A stretch of DNA of 64,000 nt from Mesorhizobium sp. C432A (GTDB taxonomy: Bacteria > Pseudomonadota > Alphaproteobacteria > Rhizobiales > Rhizobiaceae), in assembly GCF_030323145.1 (NCBI RefSeq), contig NZ_CP100470.1, forward strand, positions 2,583,001 to 2,647,000, written 5' to 3'. Below are positions 7,052 to 60,338 of the stretch, piece by piece. The number at the start of each line of letters is the position of its first letter. Position 1 is the first letter of the stretch. A program made the translations under genes and the position numbers. The notes beneath the pieces were generated by a model. It was not told the DNA's origin. It did no database searches and saw only the letters and a list, made by a program, of their open reading frames with translations.

Positions 7052-7981
7052 TCAGACCGTCAGCACCACCTTGCCGATCGGCCTAGTGGCGAGAAAAGCG
7101 TGCGCGGCGCCCGCCTGTTCGAGCGGAAACGCCTTTGCCACATGGACCGCAAGCTTTCCCGCATCGACCAGTTTGCCAAGTTCGACGAGGCCTTCACGGT
7201 CGGGCACGACGGACATGCGCTCGACGCGGATCCCACGCGCAGCAGCCTTGGCTCGGGTGGTGTCGTGGACATTGAGCAGCGACACCAGGGCGCCACCGTC
7301 CTTCAGGACTGTCAGCGATTGGTCGGCATGGTCGCCGCCCATCGGCTCCAGCACCAGGTCGACGTCGCTGACCTCGGCGGTGAAATCTCGCTTGGTGTAG
7401 TCGACCACTTCATCGGCGCCGAGCGAGCGGACGAAATCGAGTTTCTTCGGGCTGGCGGTGGCGATGACATAAGCGCCGTGCGCCTTGGCGATCTGCACCG
7501 CCAGATGCCCGACGCCGCCGGCCGCGGCATGGATCAGCACGCGCTGGCCGCGCTTCAGGCCGCCATGGCGGACAAGGCCTTGCCAGGCGGTCAGGCCGGC
7601 CAGCGGCAGCGCGCTGGCATGATTGTGGTCGATGCCTTGGGGCTTCGGTGCGATTTCATCGGCCGGCGCCACAGCGAGTTCCGCATAGGCCGCGGCCTGC
7701 TTGGGAAAATGCGGCATGCCGAACACGGCGTCACCGACCTTGAGGCCGCCACCGACGCCTGGGCCCACCGCCTCGACCGTGCCTGAAATATCCCAGCCCA
7801 AACTGAAGGGCGGTTCGCCCAGCAAAGGATAGTAACCGGCGCGCACCGAGCCATCGACCGGATTGATGCCGGCGGCATGCACGCGCACGAGCACTTCGCC
7901 TGACTTGGGCGAGGGCGCGGGGCGATCGGCGATGACGAGGACGTCGGGCCCGCCGACGGAATTCTGGATAACGGCACGCAT
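7052..7981 (-). CDS. NADP-dependent quinone oxidoreductase-like enzyme (zinc-free MDR family)
   Basis: A 309-residue medium-chain dehydrogenase/reductase. The N-terminal GroES-like domain contains HAAGINPVDGSVRAGYY. The cofactor loop AAAGGVGHLAVQIAKAHG (residues about 145-162) indicates NADPH. The catalytic zinc cysteine/histidine set of alcohol dehydrogenases is missing, as in quinone oxidoreductases (QOR). It probably reduces quinones or activated alkenes in the cytosol. It diverges from an HxlR regulator, a common pairing in which the regulator senses electrophiles or quinones and controls the reductase. An inverted repeat lies between them at 8011-8027. Confidence 0.88.
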   Translation of the reverse strand: MRAVIQNSVGGPDVLVIADRPAPSPKSGEVLVRVHAAGINPVDGSVRAGYYPLLGEPPFSLGWDISGTVEAVGPGVGGGLKVGDAVFGMPHFPKQAAAYAELAVAPADEIAPKPQGIDHNHASALPLAGLTAWQGLVRHGGLKRGQRVLIHAAAGGVGHLAVQIAKAHGAYVIATASPKKLDFVRSLGADEVVDYTKRDFTAEVSDVDLVLEPMGGDHADQSLTVLKDGGALVSLLNVHDTTRAKAAARGIRVERMSVVPDREGLVELGKLVDAGKLAVHVAKAFPLEQAGAAHAFLATRPIGKVVLTV

Positions 7982-8010
7982 GGGAGGCTCCTGCTGGGGT
8001 TTTCTGAGCC

Positions 8011-8027
8011 ACTATCATTTCGATAGT
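8011..8027. promoter_or_regulatory. Inverted repeat, likely HxlR operator
   Basis: ACTATC-ATTTC-GATAGT is a perfect 6-bp inverted repeat with a 5-base spacer. It lies in the 92-bp divergent region between the oxidoreductase and the HxlR gene. HxlR-type regulators bind such dyads, so this is the best operator candidate. Confidence 0.6.
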
Positions 8028-8073
8028 AACATTCCCTTGTCCAGTATGTACCTTTTCCATATATAGGCACCTC

Positions 8074-8475
8074 ATGGATAGTGATAATGATTGCGGCTCC
8101 GGCTATGACGCCTTCCAGCGGACGTGTCCTTCGCACGCCGTGCTCGAGATGCTGGCCAGCAAATGGATCTATCTGACGGTTTGTGCGCTGCGCCGTGGCC
8201 GGATGCGCAATGGGGAACTGGCGCGCAAGCTCGAAGGCATCACGCCCAAAATGCTGACGCAGACGCTGCGCGTCCTCGAGCGCGACGGTCTGGTGCGGCG
8301 CGAAATCTTTCCGGTGATCCCGCCGCGGGTCGAATATGAATTGACCGAACTTGGCCAGAACCTGGCGGGGCTGCTCACCCAGATACGCTCCTGGTCGGAA
8401 GAGCATGTGCCTGACATCAAGCAAGCGCGGGCGAGGGCGGCGGCGAACCAGGACGGGGATTTGACACGGGCCTGA
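8074..8475 (+). CDS. HxlR family transcriptional regulator
   Basis: A 133-residue winged-helix protein. The N-terminal cysteine-containing segment CPSHAVLEMLASKWIY is followed by the family signature LRRGRMRNGELARKLEGITPKMLTQTLRVLERDGLV and by the wing PRVEYELTELG. Such factors respond to quinones, aldehydes or other reactive small molecules, often through a conserved cysteine. It is divergent from the quinone oxidoreductase gene and probably represses it. The pair separates sciP from fliJ/ctrA and may be an insertion into an older cell-cycle block (inference). Confidence 0.93.
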   Translation: MDSDNDCGSGYDAFQRTCPSHAVLEMLASKWIYLTVCALRRGRMRNGELARKLEGITPKMLTQTLRVLERDGLVRREIFPVIPPRVEYELTELGQNLAGLLTQIRSWSEEHVPDIKQARARAAANQDGDLTRA

Positions 8476-8575
8476 AGCTGCGGCCGCCTTGCGGCCAAGT
8501 CAGCAGCGCTGGAGCCTTTTGGTCCGGAGCAAGAAGATCGGCGTCAGGCGGCGCCGGTCGGCTCAAACTCTGCCG

Positions 8576-8953
8576 TCAGCCGATCATGGCGCTGCGACCG
8601 CCGAGTTCCGCGTCGCGGATCTTGGTGTCGCGCGATTCCAGCATCTCGGCCTTGGAAAGCTCCGCTTCAGCTTCGCCGAGTAATGATTCGGCAGCGCTTC
8701 GCTGCTGGGCGAGGTCGCTTTGAGAGTTTCTGAGGTTATCACGGCGCAGACGCGCCGCCTTGGCGAAGGTCGGATAGGCAAAATGATTGATGTCCGTGAT
8801 GCCGGCCTTCTTCTCCTCGGCGGTGATCTGAAGCTCCAGTTCAACGGCCATGCGCTCGAACTCGGCGATCATCATGTCGAGCTGCAGCAGCTGCCGCCGC
8901 TTCTCATTCACCTGAAATTGCTTCAGCCGAACGAGGTTTTCACGTGACTTCAT
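8576..8953 (-). CDS. fliJ: FliJ-like flagellar export chaperone
   Basis: A 125-residue, highly charged, almost entirely alpha-helical coiled-coil protein beginning MKSRENLVRLKQFQVNEKRRQ. Size, start and helical content match alphaproteobacterial FliJ, which stimulates the export ATPase FliI and escorts late flagellar substrates. The ATG at 8953 was chosen over the open upstream extension because FliJ proteins begin at this point. The gene is divergent from ctrA, as in other Rhizobiales, but fliI is not present in the window. FliJ is poorly conserved in sequence, so part of the call rests on context. Confidence 0.72.
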   Translation of the reverse strand: MKSRENLVRLKQFQVNEKRRQLLQLDMMIAEFERMAVELELQITAEEKKAGITDINHFAYPTFAKAARLRRDNLRNSQSDLAQQRSAAESLLGEAEAELSKAEMLESRDTKIRDAELGGRSAMIG

Positions 8954-9402
8954 GATTCGGTACTCCCGGAAACGCACACCTGCACATATCGTCCAATCCG
9001 CCCGCCAGGGCCTGGCGCCGCCCGTATCCACCGGCATTCCCCGAACTATGGGAAACAAATCCCTAAAGTTTTTTGCCGGCGGTAACCATTCGTTTACGCG
9101 CATTGTTAATCATAAGGGCGAGGACTTAAGGCCGGGTAAAAATTCCGGCTCCCGATACGGAAGCCGGCCAGCGAGTCCCTTGAGTCACTTAGTCCGACTT
9201 ATTAATGTGTTGCATTAGCGATTTGGTTCTGTGATTCATCATTAGATTCAAGAGGGTGTAGAAAGGGGTTAAAAAATCTGGTACCGTCCTTGGTGCGGAA
9301 TTAGGTTTTGTTAACCATTCGATGGCAGCCTCTGTTCAGGCAATCACTGCTCCGGTCCCGGATGGGTCGTGACATGGTCCGGCGGCAGAAAAGGGGAATG
9401 AA
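8954..9402. promoter_or_regulatory. ctrA/fliJ divergent control region with GANTC cluster and CtrA half-sites
   Basis: This 449-bp gap contains five GANTC sites, the target of the CcrM methyltransferase: 8954-8958, 9173-9177, 9182-9186, 9233-9237 and 9245-9249. The last four fall within 77 bp. It also contains TTAACCAT (9311-9318), which is the CtrA half-site described in rhizobia. Single-mismatch versions occur at 9082-9089 (GTAACCAT) and 9106-9113 (TTAATCAT). Together these suggest methylation-dependent and autoregulated transcription of ctrA, with shared control of fliJ. No coding sequence is seen in it. Confidence 0.65.
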
Positions 9403-10098
9403 ATGCGCGTTCTGCTGATAGAAGACGACAGTGCAACCGCTCAGAGCATCGAGCTGATGCTCAAATCTGAAAGTTTTAATGTTTACACGACCGACCTCGG
9501 CGAAGAAGGTGTCGATCTCGGTAAACTTTATGATTACGATATCATTCTTCTCGACCTCAACCTTCCCGATATGTCCGGCTACGAAGTCTTGCGGACACTT
9601 CGCCTGTCCAAGGTGAAGACGCCGATCCTGATCCTGTCCGGCATGGCCGGTATAGAGGACAAGGTGCGCGGCCTGGGCTTCGGCGCCGACGACTATATGA
9701 CCAAGCCGTTCCACAAGGACGAACTGGTCGCCCGCATTCATGCCATCGTGCGCCGTTCCAAGGGCCATGCCCAGTCGGTCATCACCACCGGCGACCTGGT
9801 GGTCAATCTCGACGCCAAGACCGTCGAAGTCGGCGGCCAGCGCGTGCATCTGACCGGCAAGGAATACCAGATGCTGGAGTTGCTCTCGCTGCGCAAGGGC
9901 ACCACGCTGACCAAGGAAATGTTCCTCAACCACCTTTATGGCGGCATGGACGAACCGGAACTGAAGATCATCGACGTTTTCATTTGCAAGCTGCGCAAGA
10001 AGCTCGACGCAGCATCCGGTGGCCAGAACTACATCGAGACGGTCTGGGGTCGCGGCTATGTGCTGCGCGAGCCGGAAGACATCCGCGTCAGCGCCTGA
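9403..10098 (+). CDS. ctrA: Cell cycle response regulator CtrA
   Basis: A 231-residue OmpR-type regulator. The receiver domain has the acidic pocket IEDD, phosphoacceptor Asp51 in LLDLNLPD, and the conserved Lys in MTKPF. The C-terminal winged helix begins with [16 protein letters not shown] and ends with [15 protein letters not shown]. CtrA, phosphorylated through CckA and ChpT, activates division, motility and methylation genes and blocks replication initiation in alphaproteobacteria. Neighbouring sciP and chpT encode its inhibitor and its phosphodonor. A strong terminator follows at 10126-10153. The long upstream region carries GANTC and CtrA-like sites. Confidence 0.98.
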
Positions 10099-50765: not shown

Positions 50766-51890
50766 CTACTGAGTCAGGACGTTGCTGATCTCGACCATGT
50801 TGGAGCGCACGCGAAGCACGTAGAAACCCATCGTCGTCAGGTGCGTCGGCATGATCCAGCCATCCTCGCGGCCATTGGCGATGATGAAGGGCTGGATGCG
50901 CAGCGCCGAGACGAATTGCGCATCCATCGTGTCCCACAGATTGCCGAGATGCTTTTCCTTGATGACGTCCTCGAAGTCGGCCTGGGCGCCTTTCATCAGG
51001 CCGTAATAGGCATAGAGCTGGCCATAGGCGAACCAGAAGCGGTCATCGGCGCGGAAGTCGAACCAACCATTGTTGTGGTTTTCGGCGCGCTCCTTGAGGA
51101 TCGCGGAGGTGGAACCGATGTCGGAGGAGATGCGGTCGATATACTGCTTCAGATTGTCGGCGCGGGCATCGAACGTCGCCTGGCAGATGCCGAGGCGGGC
51201 GTTGAAGGAGCGCAGCTTGGTGACGGCATCGCGATAATAGCTCGGCGTCGGCGTCTTGGGGCCGAACGGGTTGATGCCGAAATACCAGGTCTCCTCGTCG
51301 AACTGCAGATTGCCGCGCGCATCCTGCAGATCGCCGTCGATCTGCGATGTGGTGCGAACACGGCCGAGATTGTCGGCAAGCTCGGTGGCGGTACGCCGCA
51401 CCGCCTGGTTGATGCCGCGCTGGAACGAGGCCTTGTTGTCCATGAACGGCGTGTTGTCCCAGTCGATGCCGAACAGGCCGAGTTTGTAGAGGATCATCGA
51501 CGAGATCCAGGCATTCTGGTTGACGTTGAAGTCCGTCAGGTCGGCCGCCACCTGGGCGATGCCCGAATTGCCGCAGGTCTTGGCGGTGTCGGTGCCGGCG
51601 CCGGCGGCGACCTGTTCGCCGGCGGAAATGTTGCGGTTCTCGAAGGTGTATTTGTCGACGTAGTTGGGATCGAACTTGTTCCACCACTGGGTGGCGTAGA
51701 AGAAATTGGCGTAGAGGCCGATCAATACCAGAAGCGCGAGGCCGACCACAGCCTTCAGGATCCAGCCGCGCTGCGTATACCAGCGCCCAGCCCAGAGGAA
51801 CGGCCACAGGATCGCGCCGATGACGAGGCCGATGCCGCGGCCGATCCATTGGAAGATGCGGGTGAAGAAATTCACGATCGGATCAAGCAT
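50766..51890 (-). CDS. DUF2333 family membrane-anchored protein (gene 5 of unknown operon)
   Basis: A 374-residue protein. The N-terminus has an amphipathic stretch and one transmembrane segment (WILKAVVGLALLVLIGLYANFFY, residues about 42-64). The remainder is a large domain with KFDPNYVDKYTFENRN, LTDFNVNQNAWISSMILYKLG, DNTPFMDNKASFQRGINQAVRR and FWFAYGQLYAYYGLMKGAQADFEDVI, matching DUF2333. The positive-inside pattern places that domain outside the membrane, in the periplasm. It is the last gene of the five-gene set, 16 bp after the DUF6638-like gene. No biochemical role is known to me. Confidence 0.8.
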   Translation of the reverse strand: MLDPIVNFFTRIFQWIGRGIGLVIGAILWPFLWAGRWYTQRGWILKAVVGLALLVLIGLYANFFYATQWWNKFDPNYVDKYTFENRNISAGEQVAAGAGTDTAKTCGNSGIAQVAADLTDFNVNQNAWISSMILYKLGLFGIDWDNTPFMDNKASFQRGINQAVRRTATELADNLGRVRTTSQIDGDLQDARGNLQFDEETWYFGINPFGPKTPTPSYYRDAVTKLRSFNARLGICQATFDARADNLKQYIDRISSDIGSTSAILKERAENHNNGWFDFRADDRFWFAYGQLYAYYGLMKGAQADFEDVIKEKHLGNLWDTMDAQFVSALRIQPFIIANGREDGWIMPTHLTTMGFYVLRVRSNMVEISNVLTQ

Positions 51891-51906
51891 GGCTCTCGTT
51901 CACCCC

Positions 51907-53211
51907 TCAGTCAGTCAGGCCGTAAAGGCGCGTGCGAAACGCCACTTTGTCTTTCAAATATGTGGTTTTCAGAACGTCCACAACATGCGACCGCCAGGCG
52001 TCGCTGTAGCCGTCATAGTCCTTGTAGAAGCCCGGCTTGTTGAAGACGTAACGCGAGACAAAGTCCTGCGGCACGAAATCCGAGATCAGCTGGTTGGTCA
52101 GCCAGGCGTCGGGATGGTCGGGCTTGCCACGCACGACCAGGAAGCGCTGTTGCGGAAACACATCCTCGATCTTGAGATGGCCGAGCTGGGCGATCTCACG
52201 CTTGGCGGCGTTGAGAAAGGGGAAATTGCCGTCCTTGGTGATCAGATCGGCATGGCCATGGATCCAGGTCTGCAGCCAGACCTTGTCGACCTCGGTCAAA
52301 TTGCGGTTCGGCTCTGTGTCGCGGATGAGAGAGCGCACCACCATCTCGGCGCGATGCTCGAGATAGCCCGAGCTTTCGACCCATGACGCGCGCGGCAATT
52401 CGATGCGGCCGGTGCTGGCCAGGAACTTGAACACCTTGTCGGCATCGTTGATCGAGAGATAGCTGACCTGCCAGGGCCGCGAACGGCGAAAGCCGGGGGC
52501 GGCCGGGTCGCCGATGACGGTGGTCATATCAGGATCGACGAAGACGTAGACGCCGCCGAAATGGCTGGTCCAGTAGGCGTTGTGGCGGAAGATCACCTGG
52601 TCGGGCACCAGCGCATTCTCACGGATATCGCCGCAGACCTTCGCCAGCTCCACCATACGGCTCAGCATGGTGTTGTCGCGCCAGGCATCGGGCTCCTGCT
52701 TCAGCCGGTCGACCAGCTTGCCGAGTTCGGCGGCCTTGCCCAGCACGTCCTCGGCCGAAAGCACCCGGAACTCGACCTGGCTGATCGACAGCAGATCCTC
52801 GATGTCGTTGACCAGGGGAACGGAATCCTCGATCTCGCCGTAGATGACATCCTTGATGGTCAGCGCATCGATGGCGCGCTGGTTCTTGGACATGAACTCG
52901 AACATCAGCTGCGAGGTGTTGGAAAAGGCGGTGTGCACCACCGGCAGATCGATCTGCGAAGGCGTCAGGATGATGAAGCGGCGGTTGACCTCATTGGGGT
53001 CGAGATAATCGTAATCGCCGCATTCCTCGGCCACTTCGGGCGAGAAGCCGGTGCGGTCGATCTGGAAGCTCTTCAGCTTGGTGGGCTTGAGGCCGAAGGC
53101 AACAAGCGCCTTGTTGTAGCGCTGGATGAGGTGCGACTCGTCGACGGTGAGCAAGCGGCCGTAGATCAGCTCATTGTCGCGGAGAAGGTCGGGTTTTTTG
53201 GCGTGGCTCAT
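51907..53211 (-). CDS. DUF6638-like soluble protein (gene 4 of unknown operon)
   Basis: A 434-residue soluble protein starting MSHAKKPDLLRDNELIYGRLLTVDESHLIQRYNKAL. It has no membrane segment or obvious catalytic motif. The segments IDRTGFSPEVAEECGDYDYLDPNEVNRRFIIL and YWTSHFGGVYVFVDPD fit what I remember of DUF6638, though this cannot be checked here. It is separated from the AAA+ gene by 333 bp carrying two inverted repeats, and from the DUF2333 gene by 16 bp. Function unknown; partnership with the ATPase is inferred from gene order. Confidence 0.7.
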   Translation of the reverse strand: MSHAKKPDLLRDNELIYGRLLTVDESHLIQRYNKALVAFGLKPTKLKSFQIDRTGFSPEVAEECGDYDYLDPNEVNRRFIILTPSQIDLPVVHTAFSNTSQLMFEFMSKNQRAIDALTIKDVIYGEIEDSVPLVNDIEDLLSISQVEFRVLSAEDVLGKAAELGKLVDRLKQEPDAWRDNTMLSRMVELAKVCGDIRENALVPDQVIFRHNAYWTSHFGGVYVFVDPDMTTVIGDPAAPGFRRSRPWQVSYLSINDADKVFKFLASTGRIELPRASWVESSGYLEHRAEMVVRSLIRDTEPNRNLTEVDKVWLQTWIHGHADLITKDGNFPFLNAAKREIAQLGHLKIEDVFPQQRFLVVRGKPDHPDAWLTNQLISDFVPQDFVSRYVFNKPGFYKDYDGYSDAWRSHVVDVLKTTYLKDKVAFRTRLYGLTD

Positions 53212-53544
53212 GCAGAACGTTCCGAGCGGCGTTGCCTGTTGTGGCGAAGCGCCAACGCTGACGCCTCCCTCTCCCCGTTCTTCACGGGGAGAGGGTAAGG
53301 GTGAGGGGCAGCGCTAGCATTCAAGGACATGTCTCCCCATGGCCTTTGGCGTCAATAAATCGAAGATCATTGGTCCGGATGTCCCGATCGAGGCGCTGTT
53401 CGATAGCTGCCAGTAGGGTCGGAGCGATCTCTGGTCCACGCATGCGCCGCCCCTCACCCTTGCCCTCGCCGCGTGAAGGACGGGGAGAGGGGGGCGTCAG
53501 CGTTAGCGCCAAGCCTTTCAGCACCCGCGGGCAGCGAAGGAAGT
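53212..53544. repeat. Pair of inverted REP-like repeats inside the operon
   Basis: A repeat of about 67 bp at 53250-53316 recurs in reverse complement at 53442-53509, with only a few mismatches. Each copy contains CTCTCCCCGT and ACGGGGAGAG arms that form their own hairpin and a GTGAGGGGC tail. The 125 bp between the copies show no gene that I trust, although the minus strand stays open from 53548 to 53321. Such elements are abundant between genes in Mesorhizobium and relatives. The large hairpin could stabilise or attenuate the operon mRNA. Confidence 0.75.
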
Positions 53545-55455
53545 TCACGCATTCCAGAGCCCCTTCTTCTTCATCTCCTCCATCTCGCGCCCCGCCCGTT
53601 CGCGCAGGCGTGCGTCGCGCAGCAGCTTCTCCACCGCGGCGTCGTCGGATTTGTCGGAATAGCGGAACTCCGAGTCGGCGTAGCGGTTGATCTCCTGCAT
53701 GACCATGTCCATCGAGAACGGCCCCCGCAGTTCCTCGATCATGGCCTTCTTTTCGTCGTAGCCCTTGTGCATGAAGACTTCCGGCTTCTCGAACCAGTCG
53801 TCGGGCAGCTCGATGTCCATGGCGCGCATCTTGATGGCGTCGGTGACGTTCTTGATGGCTCGGCCGGTGAAGCGCGGCTCGGCATCCTTGATCAGGTGCA
53901 GATAAGTGCCGATGTCGGCCATCGATTTCGGCGCGCCATTCTCCTTCATGTAGCGCTCATAGACCTTCATCAGCCCGTCTTCCTGAGGCTTCTCGTGCTC
54001 CTCATAGGCTTCGGTCACCGCGCGCTGGATCTCCTGCGCGGCGTAGAGCTTGTGGTCGCCGAGTGGGATCTTGTGGTTCTTGCCGGCAAGCAGGACGAAG
54101 ATGTCGATATAGTCGTCGCGGCTCTGTGGGCCGTCGACCAGCCAGCGGGCCCCGGCGCGCTGGCGCAGCGCATCGTCGACATTTTCGGGATAGTTGGAAA
54201 ACATGCCGAACGAGCAATTGCCGCGCACCACCGTGCCGGCGCCGGCAAAGGCGTCCATCAAGACGCCGGTGATTTCCTGTTGGCCGGCCGAGGCGCGGTC
54301 GTCGGAGCGGCGGGCCGCCACCTGGTCGATGTCGTCGACGGTGCCGAAACCGATGACGCGTGGGTTCAAGACATTGTTGATGAACTGGCGGCAATTCTGG
54401 CCAGATTTGCCCTGGTAGGACGAGATCTGGTCGACGCCGAAATTCTCATAGGCGAAGGGATAGCCGGCAACCTGACAATAATTGTTGACGAGGCCGGCGA
54501 TCATCTGGATCAGCGTCGTCTTGCCGGTGCCCGGCGCGCCGTCGCCGATGAAGGTGAAGAGGAAGCCCCCGAGTTCGACGAACGGGTTCAACTCGCGCTC
54601 GAAATCGTAGGCCATCAGCATCTTGGCGAGCTTGACCGACTGGTATTTGGCAATGTGGTTGCCGACGACCTCTTCCGGCTTCTTGAAGGTCATCACCAGC
54701 GGCTTGGAGCGCTTGCCGGGCGCGACGTCGAAGCCGTCGAGGGTGAAATCGTCGGCGTCGATGCGGATATGGGCGTTCTCGAACGGGCCGATGCCGTCGA
54801 AGCGGCCTTTACGGGCCAAGAGCCCGTCAATGGCAACACGGGCGAAAGCACGCGCCCGGGTCGTCAGGTCGCCATCGTCCTTCGACCCGGTGATCGCCTT
54901 GTCCAACCCAGCCACGATCGACTTCACCGCGTCCTGCGGCGTGTCGAACAGGAAGTCGGGTTCGGGGATATCGTTGGGCGCCTCGCCATCGCTGTCGATC
55001 AGCTGGAACAGATAGGAGGCAAGGCTGAAGGCCGAAACGTAAGCAGAGGCTGACAGAAGCTTCTTGAAGGTCGCGGCTTCATCGCCTTCGAGCGGTGCGC
55101 GGGTGTTCTTGGCCTGCAGGCTTTCAAGGTCGGAGCCTTCGGCGAAGACATCGGAAATGGCGAGCGCAATCGCCAGGCCGCGGCGGGCGCGAAACAAAAG
55201 CGTGTGCTGCGGGATGCTCATCAACTGGTCGTCGGGATGGATCGCGGCGACGGTCTTGGTAAGCTCGACCTCGCGGGTACGGCGCACCGAGCCGACCGAG
55301 ACTGTCGAGACAAAGCGGCGATTGGTGCCGGCAAGCGCGGTGCCGGATTCGCGTGAAGGATCCTCCAGCACGACGACGCGAGTGATGAAGCTTTGCGCGG
55401 TTGCGCGGTGCTTTTCGATAGCCGCTTCCGGAATGGTGGTCAGGCCGGTGTCCAT
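53545..55455 (-). CDS. AAA+ ATPase (gene 3 of unknown operon)
   Basis: A 636-residue protein. The N-terminal 290 residues have no recognised motif. The ATPase module has Walker A in GAPGTGKTTLI (residues about 303-313), Walker B in VIGFGTVDDIDQ (about 372-383), sensor-1-like FSNYPENVDD and arginine-finger-like DALRQRAGARW. The helical lid runs through EPRFTGRAIKNVTDAI. The Walker B reads VDD rather than DE, so the catalytic glutamate is replaced or shifted by one position. A charged, coiled tail (KLLRDARLRERAGREMEEMKKK) ends the protein. It is the only energy-coupling component of the operon and presumably remodels its partners. Confidence 0.85.
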   Translation of the reverse strand: MDTGLTTIPEAAIEKHRATAQSFITRVVVLEDPSRESGTALAGTNRRFVSTVSVGSVRRTREVELTKTVAAIHPDDQLMSIPQHTLLFRARRGLAIALAISDVFAEGSDLESLQAKNTRAPLEGDEAATFKKLLSASAYVSAFSLASYLFQLIDSDGEAPNDIPEPDFLFDTPQDAVKSIVAGLDKAITGSKDDGDLTTRARAFARVAIDGLLARKGRFDGIGPFENAHIRIDADDFTLDGFDVAPGKRSKPLVMTFKKPEEVVGNHIAKYQSVKLAKMLMAYDFERELNPFVELGGFLFTFIGDGAPGTGKTTLIQMIAGLVNNYCQVAGYPFAYENFGVDQISSYQGKSGQNCRQFINNVLNPRVIGFGTVDDIDQVAARRSDDRASAGQQEITGVLMDAFAGAGTVVRGNCSFGMFSNYPENVDDALRQRAGARWLVDGPQSRDDYIDIFVLLAGKNHKIPLGDHKLYAAQEIQRAVTEAYEEHEKPQEDGLMKVYERYMKENGAPKSMADIGTYLHLIKDAEPRFTGRAIKNVTDAIKMRAMDIELPDDWFEKPEVFMHKGYDEKKAMIEELRGPFSMDMVMQEINRYADSEFRYSDKSDDAAVEKLLRDARLRERAGREMEEMKKKGLWNA

Positions 55456-55479
55456 GAAGGATGCTCCGCGATGTGACGG

Positions 55480-56625
55480 TCAGACATCTGAAATCACCTG
55501 CCCATTTGACAGGATGTGAACCTTGTAGCCGGAAAAGATCTTTTGAGCTTCGCCGGCGGCGTAGAGTGCTTGATAGGCTTCGTGCGGGATCAGGGCGTGG
55601 TTCTCGTAGCTCGACACACCCTGGCGCGCGGCTTCGAGATCGTCGGTGTTGATAAAGAATTCCTGCGTCGTCTTCTCGCTCGAAAACAGCCCCTTGCGGC
55701 CGGGTTTCTCGCCCTTGGAGTAGACCTCCTGGATGGTCCAGGTGAGCAGCCAGGCATTTTCCGGTTTGCGCACCTTGGCCAGCACCTCGGTCACGGTCGA
55801 ATTGTTGTCCGTAATGCCTGCGGAATAAAAGGGGCCGAGCACGACGCGGCGCAGCTGCTTGGGGTGCAGCGGCTCGAAATCCTTGTCGAGATTGACCGCA
55901 ATCGTTGCGGGCGAAAGCGTGTAGGCGGAATTCTTCTCGGTGAAATCGTCGAAGCGATGGGCGAGTTCGGGGTTGAGCAGGCCGTCCACCGGCAGCGGGA
56001 TGTCGACCCGTTCATTGAGCTTGCCGCTGCTGTCAACGAGCTGCCGGATCATGCTTTCGGAGGAATCCTCCACCGTCACCATGTAGACCAGCGGCAGGTT
56101 GGCGCTGCCGTCGAAGCTCGCCCAGTGCACGAGGTAATAGGGACGCCCGGTCTTTGGATTGACCGAGACCTTGGCCGTCTGCGCCAGCGAGAACGGGCCA
56201 AAAGTCTGTTCGCTCTTGACGTCCTCGAGATAGAGCCGCTCGGCCATCGACTTCTGCAGCGCTTCGGGGAATTCCTTGTGGCGCAGGATGAAGTCGGCCA
56301 TTTCCTCGCGCAATTCGCCGGCCAGCGGAATGTTGGCCAGCCGCGCCTCGGCCTGGCGGCGGTCGTTTTCCAGTTCGAGCAGGTTCTGGAAGACGGGATA
56401 GCCGCTGTCGGCGCGCGAAATGCGGAACGTGTCCATGAAGCCGAGCCGGTTGCGCCAGCAGGAAAACGATTTGTCCAGCCGGGCAATGTATTCGGCGACA
56501 ATCTTGGCGACGATGCCGTGCCGGTAAAGCGGCGAGCGGTCGTCGCGCATGAACACTTCGAGGCCGCTGAGTGCCGCCGTGATGGCGGAAAAATAGCGCG
56601 CCGCCGCTTCGTTTTCGGGAGTCAT
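55480..56625 (-). CDS. Unknown conserved protein (gene 2 of unknown operon)
   Basis: A 381-residue protein without signal peptide or membrane segment. The first half is helical (ALSGLEVFMRDDRSPLYRHGIVAKIVAEYIARLDKSFSCWRNRL), the second half is mixed alpha/beta (NPKTGRPYYLVHWASFDGSANLPLVYMVTVEDSSESMI ... LLTWTIQEVYSKGEKPG). I do not recognise a family. It is 27 bp downstream of the coiled-coil gene and 24 bp upstream of the AAA+ gene, so all three are co-transcribed. It may be an adaptor between the coiled-coil protein and the ATPase (inference). Confidence 0.72.
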   Translation of the reverse strand: MTPENEAAARYFSAITAALSGLEVFMRDDRSPLYRHGIVAKIVAEYIARLDKSFSCWRNRLGFMDTFRISRADSGYPVFQNLLELENDRRQAEARLANIPLAGELREEMADFILRHKEFPEALQKSMAERLYLEDVKSEQTFGPFSLAQTAKVSVNPKTGRPYYLVHWASFDGSANLPLVYMVTVEDSSESMIRQLVDSSGKLNERVDIPLPVDGLLNPELAHRFDDFTEKNSAYTLSPATIAVNLDKDFEPLHPKQLRRVVLGPFYSAGITDNNSTVTEVLAKVRKPENAWLLTWTIQEVYSKGEKPGRKGLFSSEKTTQEFFINTDDLEAARQGVSSYENHALIPHEAYQALYAAGEAQKIFSGYKVHILSNGQVISDV

Positions 56626-56652
56626 GCCGGTGTGCCCGCGTGCAGCCGCTCC

Positions 56653-57741
56653 TTACGACTGCACGTAGTTGGCCGAATTGTGCTTCTTCATCACGTCGTC
56701 GAAACGGCGGGCGAAGGCGTCGTCGGCGAGCTTCTTGCGGCGCTGGATGTCGGAGCTGGCGACCATGTTCTTCTCGTGCATTTCGAGGAGATCGCCGATG
56801 TGCTTTTGCGAGGCGGCGCCAATGCCGGCCATGGTCTCTTCGGCGGTGTTGTCAACCTGGCTGCCCAGCGTGTTGATCTTGTGGGCGACATCCTGCTGGG
56901 CGGCGGTCTTCAAGGAATCTTCCAGTGCCTTGTAGAGCACGATGCGCTGCTCGGTATCGATGGTCAGCTTGTTGATCAGCGTCGACTGCGCTGCGATCTG
57001 ATTGTTGAGCGAATCGACGAAGGTCTGGAACATCGAGGTGTAGCGTTCCAGCGTCTGGCTTTCGGCCAGAAGCTCCTGCTCCTTGGCCTGCTTTTCATTG
57101 TATTCGGTCGCCAGTTTCGAGCGCTCGCCCTCAAGCTGCGTGCGCTCCTTCTGACTGGTAGAAGCGGCGATCTTGTTTTCGATGTCGAGCAGCAGCGGAT
57201 TGACCTCCTCGATGCGCTTCTGCACCGCCTCGAGGTTGGTCATGGTGACCTTGCGGCGCTCGATGACCTGCGACAGGCTGTTTTCCGAGGTCTTGTAGCG
57301 CTGGTCGAGGACCTCTTTCTGCGCTTTCAGGATGCCGACGATGGTGTCGGACTTGACCAGAAGCTCCTGCAGATTGCCGGCCAGCGACATGTTGCGGACG
57401 CGGTCGGTGCGCATGCGCTGCTTGCGTTGCGCCGAGAAGACACCGACGAAGCTTTCCCAGCCGGTGTAGTTCTTCATGCTCTCGAATTCAGTGCCGAAGA
57501 CGTTGGTGGCGTCTTCCAGCCCGATGATCAGGTCGGCGATGTTGCCTTCCATCACCTTCTGCTGCTTCAGCACGTCCTCGATGCGGGCATTCTCGATGTC
57601 GAAATTGGCGTCGCCGATCTTCTTGTCGGCGGTGGCCAGCGTATCAAGCACCGTGCCCGACTGCTCGATCTTGGAGCGCATGTCCTGCACGACCTGCCTG
57701 GTCTTGGCAATTTCGGCATCGAAATTCTGCAATGTCGCCAT
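56653..57741 (-). CDS. Cytoplasmic coiled-coil protein (gene 1 of unknown operon)
   Basis: A 362-residue almost purely helical protein. Heptad-rich segments run from residues about 5-60 and 140-260 (for example QKERTQLEGERSKLATEYNEKQAKEQELLAESQTLERY). A conserved-looking middle, ESMKNYTGWESFVGVFSAQRKQRMRTDRVRN, joins them. There is no membrane segment or signal peptide. The overall layout is reminiscent of TelA-type proteins of tellurite or toxic-anion resistance sets, but I cannot show homology. As first gene of the set it may be the scaffold on which the ATPase acts. Confidence 0.75.
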   Translation of the reverse strand: MATLQNFDAEIAKTRQVVQDMRSKIEQSGTVLDTLATADKKIGDANFDIENARIEDVLKQQKVMEGNIADLIIGLEDATNVFGTEFESMKNYTGWESFVGVFSAQRKQRMRTDRVRNMSLAGNLQELLVKSDTIVGILKAQKEVLDQRYKTSENSLSQVIERRKVTMTNLEAVQKRIEEVNPLLLDIENKIAASTSQKERTQLEGERSKLATEYNEKQAKEQELLAESQTLERYTSMFQTFVDSLNNQIAAQSTLINKLTIDTEQRIVLYKALEDSLKTAAQQDVAHKINTLGSQVDNTAEETMAGIGAASQKHIGDLLEMHEKNMVASSDIQRRKKLADDAFARRFDDVMKKHNSANYVQS

Positions 57742-59726: not shown

Positions 59727-60338
59727 TCAGCCTCTGGTGAAGCCAATGAAATCGTCGGGCGCGGCGCGGCCCATTTCCTCTTCCCAGTGGCGGCGGCAGA
59801 GCGAGATATAGACGTCCTTGCCTATCGCCACCTGTTCGCCTTGTCTGGCCACCTTGCCGTCAGCGCCGAGACGCACGACCATCGTCGCCTTGCGGCCGCA
59901 GCGGCAGATGGTGCGCACTTCGCGCAGTTCGTCTGCGATGGCCAGAAGCGCTCGCGAACCGGAAAACAGATTGCCCTGGAAATCGGTGCGCAGGCCGTAG
60001 CACATCACCGGGATGTTCAGCCGGTCGGCGATACGGGCGAGCTGCCAGACCTGCTCTTCCTCGAGAAATTGCGCCTCGTCGACAAAGATGCAATGCACCG
60101 TCGTATGTTCGTGATGCTCGGCGACGCGAGCGTAGAGATCGTCGCCGTCGCGGAACATCTCGGCCTCCGTCTCCAGGCCGATGCGCGACGAGATCAGCCC
60201 GGTGTCGCCCTTTCTGTAGTGGCCGGCGACGAACAGCATCGTCGTCATACCGCGTTCGCGATAATTGTAGGACGCCTGCAGCAGCATTGTCGTTTTGCCG
60301 GCATTCATCGTCGCATAGTGGAAGTAGAGCTTGGCCAT
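59727..60338 (-). CDS. tdk: Thymidine kinase
   Basis: A 203-residue type II thymidine kinase. It has the P-loop MNAGKTTMLLQ (residues about 11-21), Asp/Glu in IFVDEAQFL (catalytic Glu), the lasso region and zinc ligands CRCG with a partner C in SLCRRHW. It phosphorylates thymidine to TMP for DNA precursor salvage. The length and start are normal. Confidence 0.96.
   Translation of the reverse strand: MAKLYFHYATMNAGKTTMLLQASYNYRERGMTTMLFVAGHYRKGDTGLISSRIGLETEAEMFRDGDDLYARVAEHHEHTTVHCIFVDEAQFLEEEQVWQLARIADRLNIPVMCYGLRTDFQGNLFSGSRALLAIADELREVRTICRCGRKATMVVRLGADGKVARQGEQVAIGKDVYISLCRRHWEEEMGRAAPDDFIGFTRG

Follow-up and report, generated by a model that had tools for sequence, protein, structure and literature searches.

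Five co-oriented genes around an AAA ATPase

Exploring a 64,000-nucleotide stretch of Mesorhizobium sp. C432A (contig NZ_CP100470.1, positions 2,583,001 to 2,647,000; hereafter the window), taken from a genome of 6.0 Mb assembled in a single contig, we analyzed five open reading frames (ORFs), named here genes A to E, that lie on the minus strand between 57741 and 50766. A preliminary description of the window had proposed them as an operon encoding an envelope-associated machine. The gaps between them, recomputed as 27, 24, 333 and 16 bp, agree with that description. The genes are as follows (aa, amino acids):

56653..57741, minus strand: gene A, 362 aa, cytosolic, all-helical, with long helices in the predicted model
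55480..56625, minus strand: gene B, 381 aa, soluble, without a family, candidate adaptor
53545..55455, minus strand: gene C, 636 aa, with a single AAA ATPase domain of the classic type after an N-terminal region of ~250 residues
51907..53211, minus strand: gene D, 434 aa, soluble, a DUF6638 protein whose initial 6-7 codons lack a counterpart in most aligned relatives
50766..51890, minus strand: gene E, 374 aa, a DUF2333 protein of the inner membrane with a probable periplasmic domain

In Pfam, C scored 41.2 bits against AAA (PF00004; cut-off 21.2), D scored 230.1 against DUF6638 (PF20343; cut-off 27) and E scored 78.3 against DUF2333 (PF10095; cut-off 22), bearing out the two DUF assignments made earlier; A and B had nothing above cut-off. 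Pairwise profile comparison of A to E revealed no homology to one another, and a sequence search for proteins of solved structure related to A, B, D or E returned none that was convincing. Hydropathy analysis found no hydrophobic window above 1.6 in A to D; among the five proteins a strong membrane stretch was confined to E (residues 43-61, with a borderline window at 16-34), so that the earlier label of E as single-pass is kept as likely, on hydropathy. Scans for promoters and terminators detected nothing exceeding shuffled sequences.

A-B-C-D is conserved as a unit

To define the unit we collected 153 loci picked by C, D or E: 100 carried A-B-C-D-E, 23 A-B-C-D, five A and E, 21 E without A-D, and four were partial. 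A to D were colinear and on one strand in 123/123 loci holding all four, the C proteins of which are all distinct, many being close kin. With D as bait, 98/150 genomes were positive, 88/90 in the genus (the source genome counted; G024 and G043 had no match) and 10/60 outside it. Rare co-occurrence of the families elsewhere, which the preliminary description had named as speaking against its proposal, is not what we found: beyond the genus, all 10 genomes positive for D have A, B, C and D adjoining. In 20 larger D-centred stretches, ten from within the genus and ten from outside, A-B-C-D was ordered in 20/20 and E was present too in 18/20. The A-B-C-D sets on Vibrio replicons are 25-40% identical to that of the window. 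Chance does not account for the arrangement, which is retained between families, and in another class, at identities of 20-50%.

With C as bait, the best 80 of 567 confirmed named loci, mostly close kin, comprised 76 with A-B-C-D and E and four partial ones, every one cut by a contig end. Two genes outside the system served as synteny markers:

59727..60338, minus strand: thymidine kinase gene (tdk), named via annotated homologues in L179 and L181
48774..50453, minus strand: formate-tetrahydrofolate ligase (FTHFS) gene

The fetched flanks contained both in 61/80 of these loci, one of them in 17 and neither in two; they also flank the full operon of S. meliloti (L179). Genome searches, which scored at most 4-5 candidates per genome, detected C in 5/289 genomes of the class, 31/249 of the order and 21/249 of the phylum (the source genome counted); because of that number of candidates, absence of C is likely rather than certain. 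A search for A homologues was set aside, as the best 120 of 2055 were close kin only. Together, gene order and distribution provide good support for A-D as a real conserved unit and, with the exchange described next, for a modular membrane slot beside it.

The membrane subunit is exchanged between DUF2333 and DUF1523

A-D loci without E carried in 19/23 cases a different gene, F, downstream and on the same strand. All five F proteins tested, of the 19, scored 151.5-228 against DUF1523 (PF07509; cut-off 23), so that E and F are members of DUF2333 and DUF1523, respectively, by score. F has an N-terminal hydrophobic segment, followed in most cases by another around residues 150-170, and a cytosolic tail; by sequence it is an alternative membrane protein at A-D loci, unrelated to E. 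A profile search for F in the four exceptions (L014, two Vibrio and a R. leguminosarum plasmid) gave no match; in L014 the contig stops at D.

The alternation was examined in draws of 249 phylum genomes each for E, F and C, made with the same settings and coinciding handles, the lists being compared by hand. E was present in 64 genomes, F in 22 and C in 21, and E and F occurred together in 0/249. Nine of the 21 C-positive genomes had E, 12 had F and none had both, while E or F was found in 65/228 C-less genomes (Fisher p 3e-11, the related genomes being non-independent). A quick tree built from 44 C proteins requires a single E/F change if the three rows having neither are left out, and four changes over all three groups if they are included. 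The F lineage probably represents Rhodobacteraceae and kin, judging from names. In G659 (L202), a genome of another class, the order is A-B-C-D-F and C adjoins that of a genome of family f74, probably Rhodobacteraceae judging from names, within the F lineage (Shimodaira-Hasegawa-like approximate likelihood ratio test 99), which suggests that the whole unit was transferred.

E exists in many genomes without A-D, and F too occurs without them: 11 F loci, from C-less genomes or as second copies, had no A, B, C or D alongside. An ORF listing near E without A-D showed no conserved neighbour, a weak result given that wrong frames were chosen in high-GC DNA. As E swaps with DUF1523 and also stands alone elsewhere, we conclude that the core is A-B-C-D. 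The envelope machine of the preliminary description is thereby narrowed: a conserved unit, a motor-type AAA+ ATPase and a periplasm-facing membrane subunit hold, but the unit is A-B-C-D rather than all five genes, and E is exchangeable.

Features of E and F that go with the operon

Two segments of E are considered here:

51708..51764, minus strand: transmembrane segment of E (residues 43-61), by hydropathy
51876..51887, minus strand: LDPI motif of E (residues 2-5), on the cytosolic side, candidate docking motif

Near the N-terminus, 99/100 E proteins of full operons have the motif [LF][DE]P[ILV], the exception (L081) being an overlong frame; of the E without A-D, 0/21 have it. Likewise, Cys106 and Cys236, invariant among 12 aligned proteins, occurred as a pair in 103/105 A-linked E versus 2/22 others, one of these two belonging to a contig-cut operon (L080). 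Thus operon-linked E differ from DUF2333 proteins without A-D in both features. In F, a [LIV]DP[IVLMT] motif follows the second hydrophobic segment in 16/19 linked copies versus 4/11 without A-D (p 0.015); counting IEPF as well gives 5/11 (p 0.042), the copies being non-independent in both comparisons. L223, L224, L227 and L220 are DUF1523 genes with the [LI]DP tail motif and no A-D found alongside; they are possibly recent losses of the A-D core.

B-C-D appear to have been lost in place

A and E alone were found in five loci (L145, L146, L148, L150 and L181), each between tdk and FTHFS; R. leguminosarum accounts for one of them. In the other four genomes a genome-wide search, made for C and not for B or D, gave no match elsewhere. 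The position of these loci suggests that B-C-D were apparently lost in place from them rather than gained in the full operons. The E proteins of all five pairs start with MLDRI. One part of A is likewise altered:

56782..56925, minus strand: residues 273-320 of A, well conserved with B-C-D, deleted or diverged in 5/5 A without B-C-D

Among 89 A proteins from C-containing loci, 36 near-identical loci being excluded, mean conservation of columns 261-280, 281-300 and 301-320 was 0.90, 0.80 and 0.77. The five A without C matched the consensus at 0.30, 0.12 and 0.12 over these blocks and at 0.50 over columns 241-260. By sequence, then, B-C-D, residues 273-320 of A and the proline of E are jointly absent in A-E loci, and A 273-320 and the LDP of E may be contact or docking surfaces for the B-C-D part.

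The identity of A was sought by fold as well. Its predicted model (m467c7c01a011) has a predicted local distance difference test score of 76.8 and a predicted template modelling score (pTM) of 0.66. TelA/KlaA (PF05816), which resembles A in being helical and cytosolic and is of similar length, was suggested by eye; there was no Pfam match, however, and the hhalign score of 30.7 lies within the range of 30 shuffles (top two 30.1 and 31.4), so A was rejected as TelA. A search of the source genome for a TelA match gave none. Foldseek hits of A to helical pore-forming toxins (best E 2.2e-3; template modelling score at most 0.40 and root-mean-square deviation ~9 or more among the matches listed) were discounted too, being read as generic helix packing.

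The ATPase has an invariant Asp-Asp Walker B and a pore-loop tyrosine

Motifs of C were mapped by alignment, the Arg fingers by the p97 pattern. Two sites stand out:

54331..54336, minus strand: Walker B acidic pair D374-D375, with Asp where Glu is usual
54415..54417, minus strand: Tyr347 (SYQGKS), at the pore-loop-1 aromatic position, aligned to SKYYGQS of a VCP-like ATPase

The VDD noted earlier in the Walker B of C proved general: 127/127 homologues have Asp-Asp, and none the Asp-Glu of classic AAA proteins. Walker A and the pore-loop Tyr are kept in 127/127, the Arg-finger region in 126/127, and the sensor-2 motif is kept as well. Compared with classic AAA proteins (PF00004: FtsH, p97/Cdc48, proteasomal Rpt, Drg1/Rix7), C has the same domain fold, Walker A, pore-loop aromatic, sensor-1 Asn and Arg-finger region, but differs in having DD for DE, an Arg in [FY][ST]GR, which we take to be sensor 2, and its own N-terminal region. 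It also differs in its partners, the functionally uncharacterised A, B and D. By fold and by sequence, FtsH and the ATPase domain of i-AAA rank among the nearest to C, and no protease domain (Pfam) or transmembrane segment (hydropathy) was found in C.

In one genome (G533, L142) the ATPase is split over two overlapping frames (7558-9475), by a frameshift or an assembly error. By its locus-tag number, SMc02733 of S. meliloti could be gene C of this locus, a provisional mapping. For strain 1021, a ChvI-bound stretch of 166 bp is tabulated as an intragenic fragment of SMc02733 (PMC3687685).

The C-D gap holds an inserted repeat element

The widest gap of the operon contains a feature outside the system:

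53249..53509, no strand: inverted-repeat element between C and D, with arms at 53249-53314 and 53444-53509

This element of 261 bp resembles a miniature inverted-repeat transposable element, its 66-nt inverted arms being 89% complementary, and pieces of it were found at seven other places in the genome (40/46 candidates scored). C and D overlap in 34/123 loci and are more than 200 bp apart in 57/123. The 333-bp gap was reported at its right size, but it is an insertion of the repeat element and not the original spacing. In S. meliloti Ak57 (L179, 11100-12845) a gene with an endonuclease domain and an ISRm16 transposase lie between C and D, which makes this junction a recurrent insertion site. 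The L179 record is labelled pSymB but, at 3.7 Mb, may be the chromosome.

A proposed mechanism and its alternatives

We propose, tentatively and at somewhat below an even chance, that A-D is a cytosolic ATP-driven remodeller of coiled-coil A, tethered to the inner membrane via E or F. A-B-C-D would form a protein-remodelling complex and one periplasm-facing subunit, E here and F in another lineage, would tether it. C would act as a single-ring classic AAA, presumably a hexamer, the pore-loop tyrosine of which grips a polypeptide. Its likeliest client would be A, a long helical protein, engaged at the conserved 273-320, with B and D serving as ring adaptors or regulators. E may dock the B-C-D part onto the membrane by its short cytosolic peptide, which begins (M)LDPI, and the similar [LIV]DP motif in the cytosolic tail of most operon-linked F might do the same. 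With its ATPase cycle the complex would load A at the membrane, rearrange it there or take it apart, and E or F would relay this remodelling to the periplasm, or sense the periplasm. Sequence shows the order of the genes, their motifs, the exchange of E and F and the joint absences; the hexamer, client, adaptors, docking and envelope role are a reasoned guess.

Several observations weigh against this proposal. The contrast at A 273-320 is not unique, as columns 61-80 behave similarly (0.81 with C versus 0.20 without), and A of the A-E loci has diverged along its whole length. As the A-E pairs seem to belong to a single lineage, their co-loss may be one event, and since A and E persist without C, A has to be more than a client of C. 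The tail motif of F is also seen in 4/11 copies without A-D, or 5/11 with IEPF, and Vibrio L177 and L178 and the Rhizobium plasmid copy L180 have A-D without E or F in the fetched stretch. Finally, the predicted model of C is weak (pTM 0.46), and the Walker B DD could mean slow or absent hydrolysis.

The last point is the starting place of an unlikely alternative, in which DD makes C slow and C is a stable ATP-bound scaffold or switch, not a threading motor, that keeps A, B, D and E assembled for a sensory or structural role. The DD of all 127 homologues fits it, the non-hydrolysing D2 ring of NSF likewise has Asp at that place of Walker B, and E and F, which probably face the periplasm, would be apt for sensing; the kept pore-loop Tyr, Arg-finger region and sensor-2 motif, however, would be needless for a pure scaffold. 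Membrane-protein quality control is a doubtful reading too: C docked on E or F would extract or solubilise inner-membrane or periplasm-facing clients, like FtsH, Msp1 or Bcs1, with A as chaperone or clamp and not client. FtsH and i-AAA among the nearest relatives of C, a membrane subunit in 21/21 C-positive sampled genomes and the ability of A and E to persist without C are consistent with it, but C lacks a detected protease domain and a transmembrane segment, and it leaves unexplained why the conserved segment of A goes with the loss of C.

An anti-phage defence or other conflict system is very improbable. C has weak PADLOC matches to TRIP13 (E 2.8e-4) and IetA (E 5.2e-4), in the ATPase region only, and a weak PHROG match in that region (phrog_3757, E 6.2e-7), and the unit is patchy outside the genus (5/289 class genomes) with one apparent transfer to another class (L202). 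Against this, the unit is near-universal in the genus (D in 88/90) and occupies one syntenic place in named relatives; C was unmatched in 50,697 phage records, and none of A, B, D and E matched PADLOC below E 0.1, so that C is not joined by the partner-gene matches expected of an IetA or TRIP13 system.

Returning to the tethered remodeller of A, an extended form that we regard as quite unlikely makes it a counterpart of NSF/SNARE or Vps4/ESCRT-III in logic, not ancestry: a tethered classic AAA ring with two dedicated adaptors would dismantle or reload helical coiled-coil A, and the anchor slot would be filled by unrelated DUF2333 or DUF1523 proteins via a shared short LDP docking motif. We claim no membership of those systems; A has no sequence link to them, and helical bundles can attain such fold Z values by chance.

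Significance

Searches of the open-access literature, which omits most subscription journals, with DUF2333, DUF6638, DUF1523 and combined terms returned no description of the system, the passages on DUF1523 not concerning its function here, consistent with the earlier claim that the set is undescribed. What is new here is the E/F alternation, the apparent in-place loss of B-C-D with changes in A and E, and the invariant DD and pore-loop tyrosine. Together, the data point to an apparently undescribed set, probably an ATP-driven, membrane-tethered remodelling machine. DUF6638, DUF2333 and DUF1523 thereby gain one shared context, and A 273-320, the LDP of E, and Tyr347 and Asp375 of C are singled out as residues. 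If C is indeed part of a membrane-tethered coiled-coil remodeller, the envelope biology of rhizobia, of some Vibrio and, judging from names, probably of roseobacters would include a machine with its own partner set.
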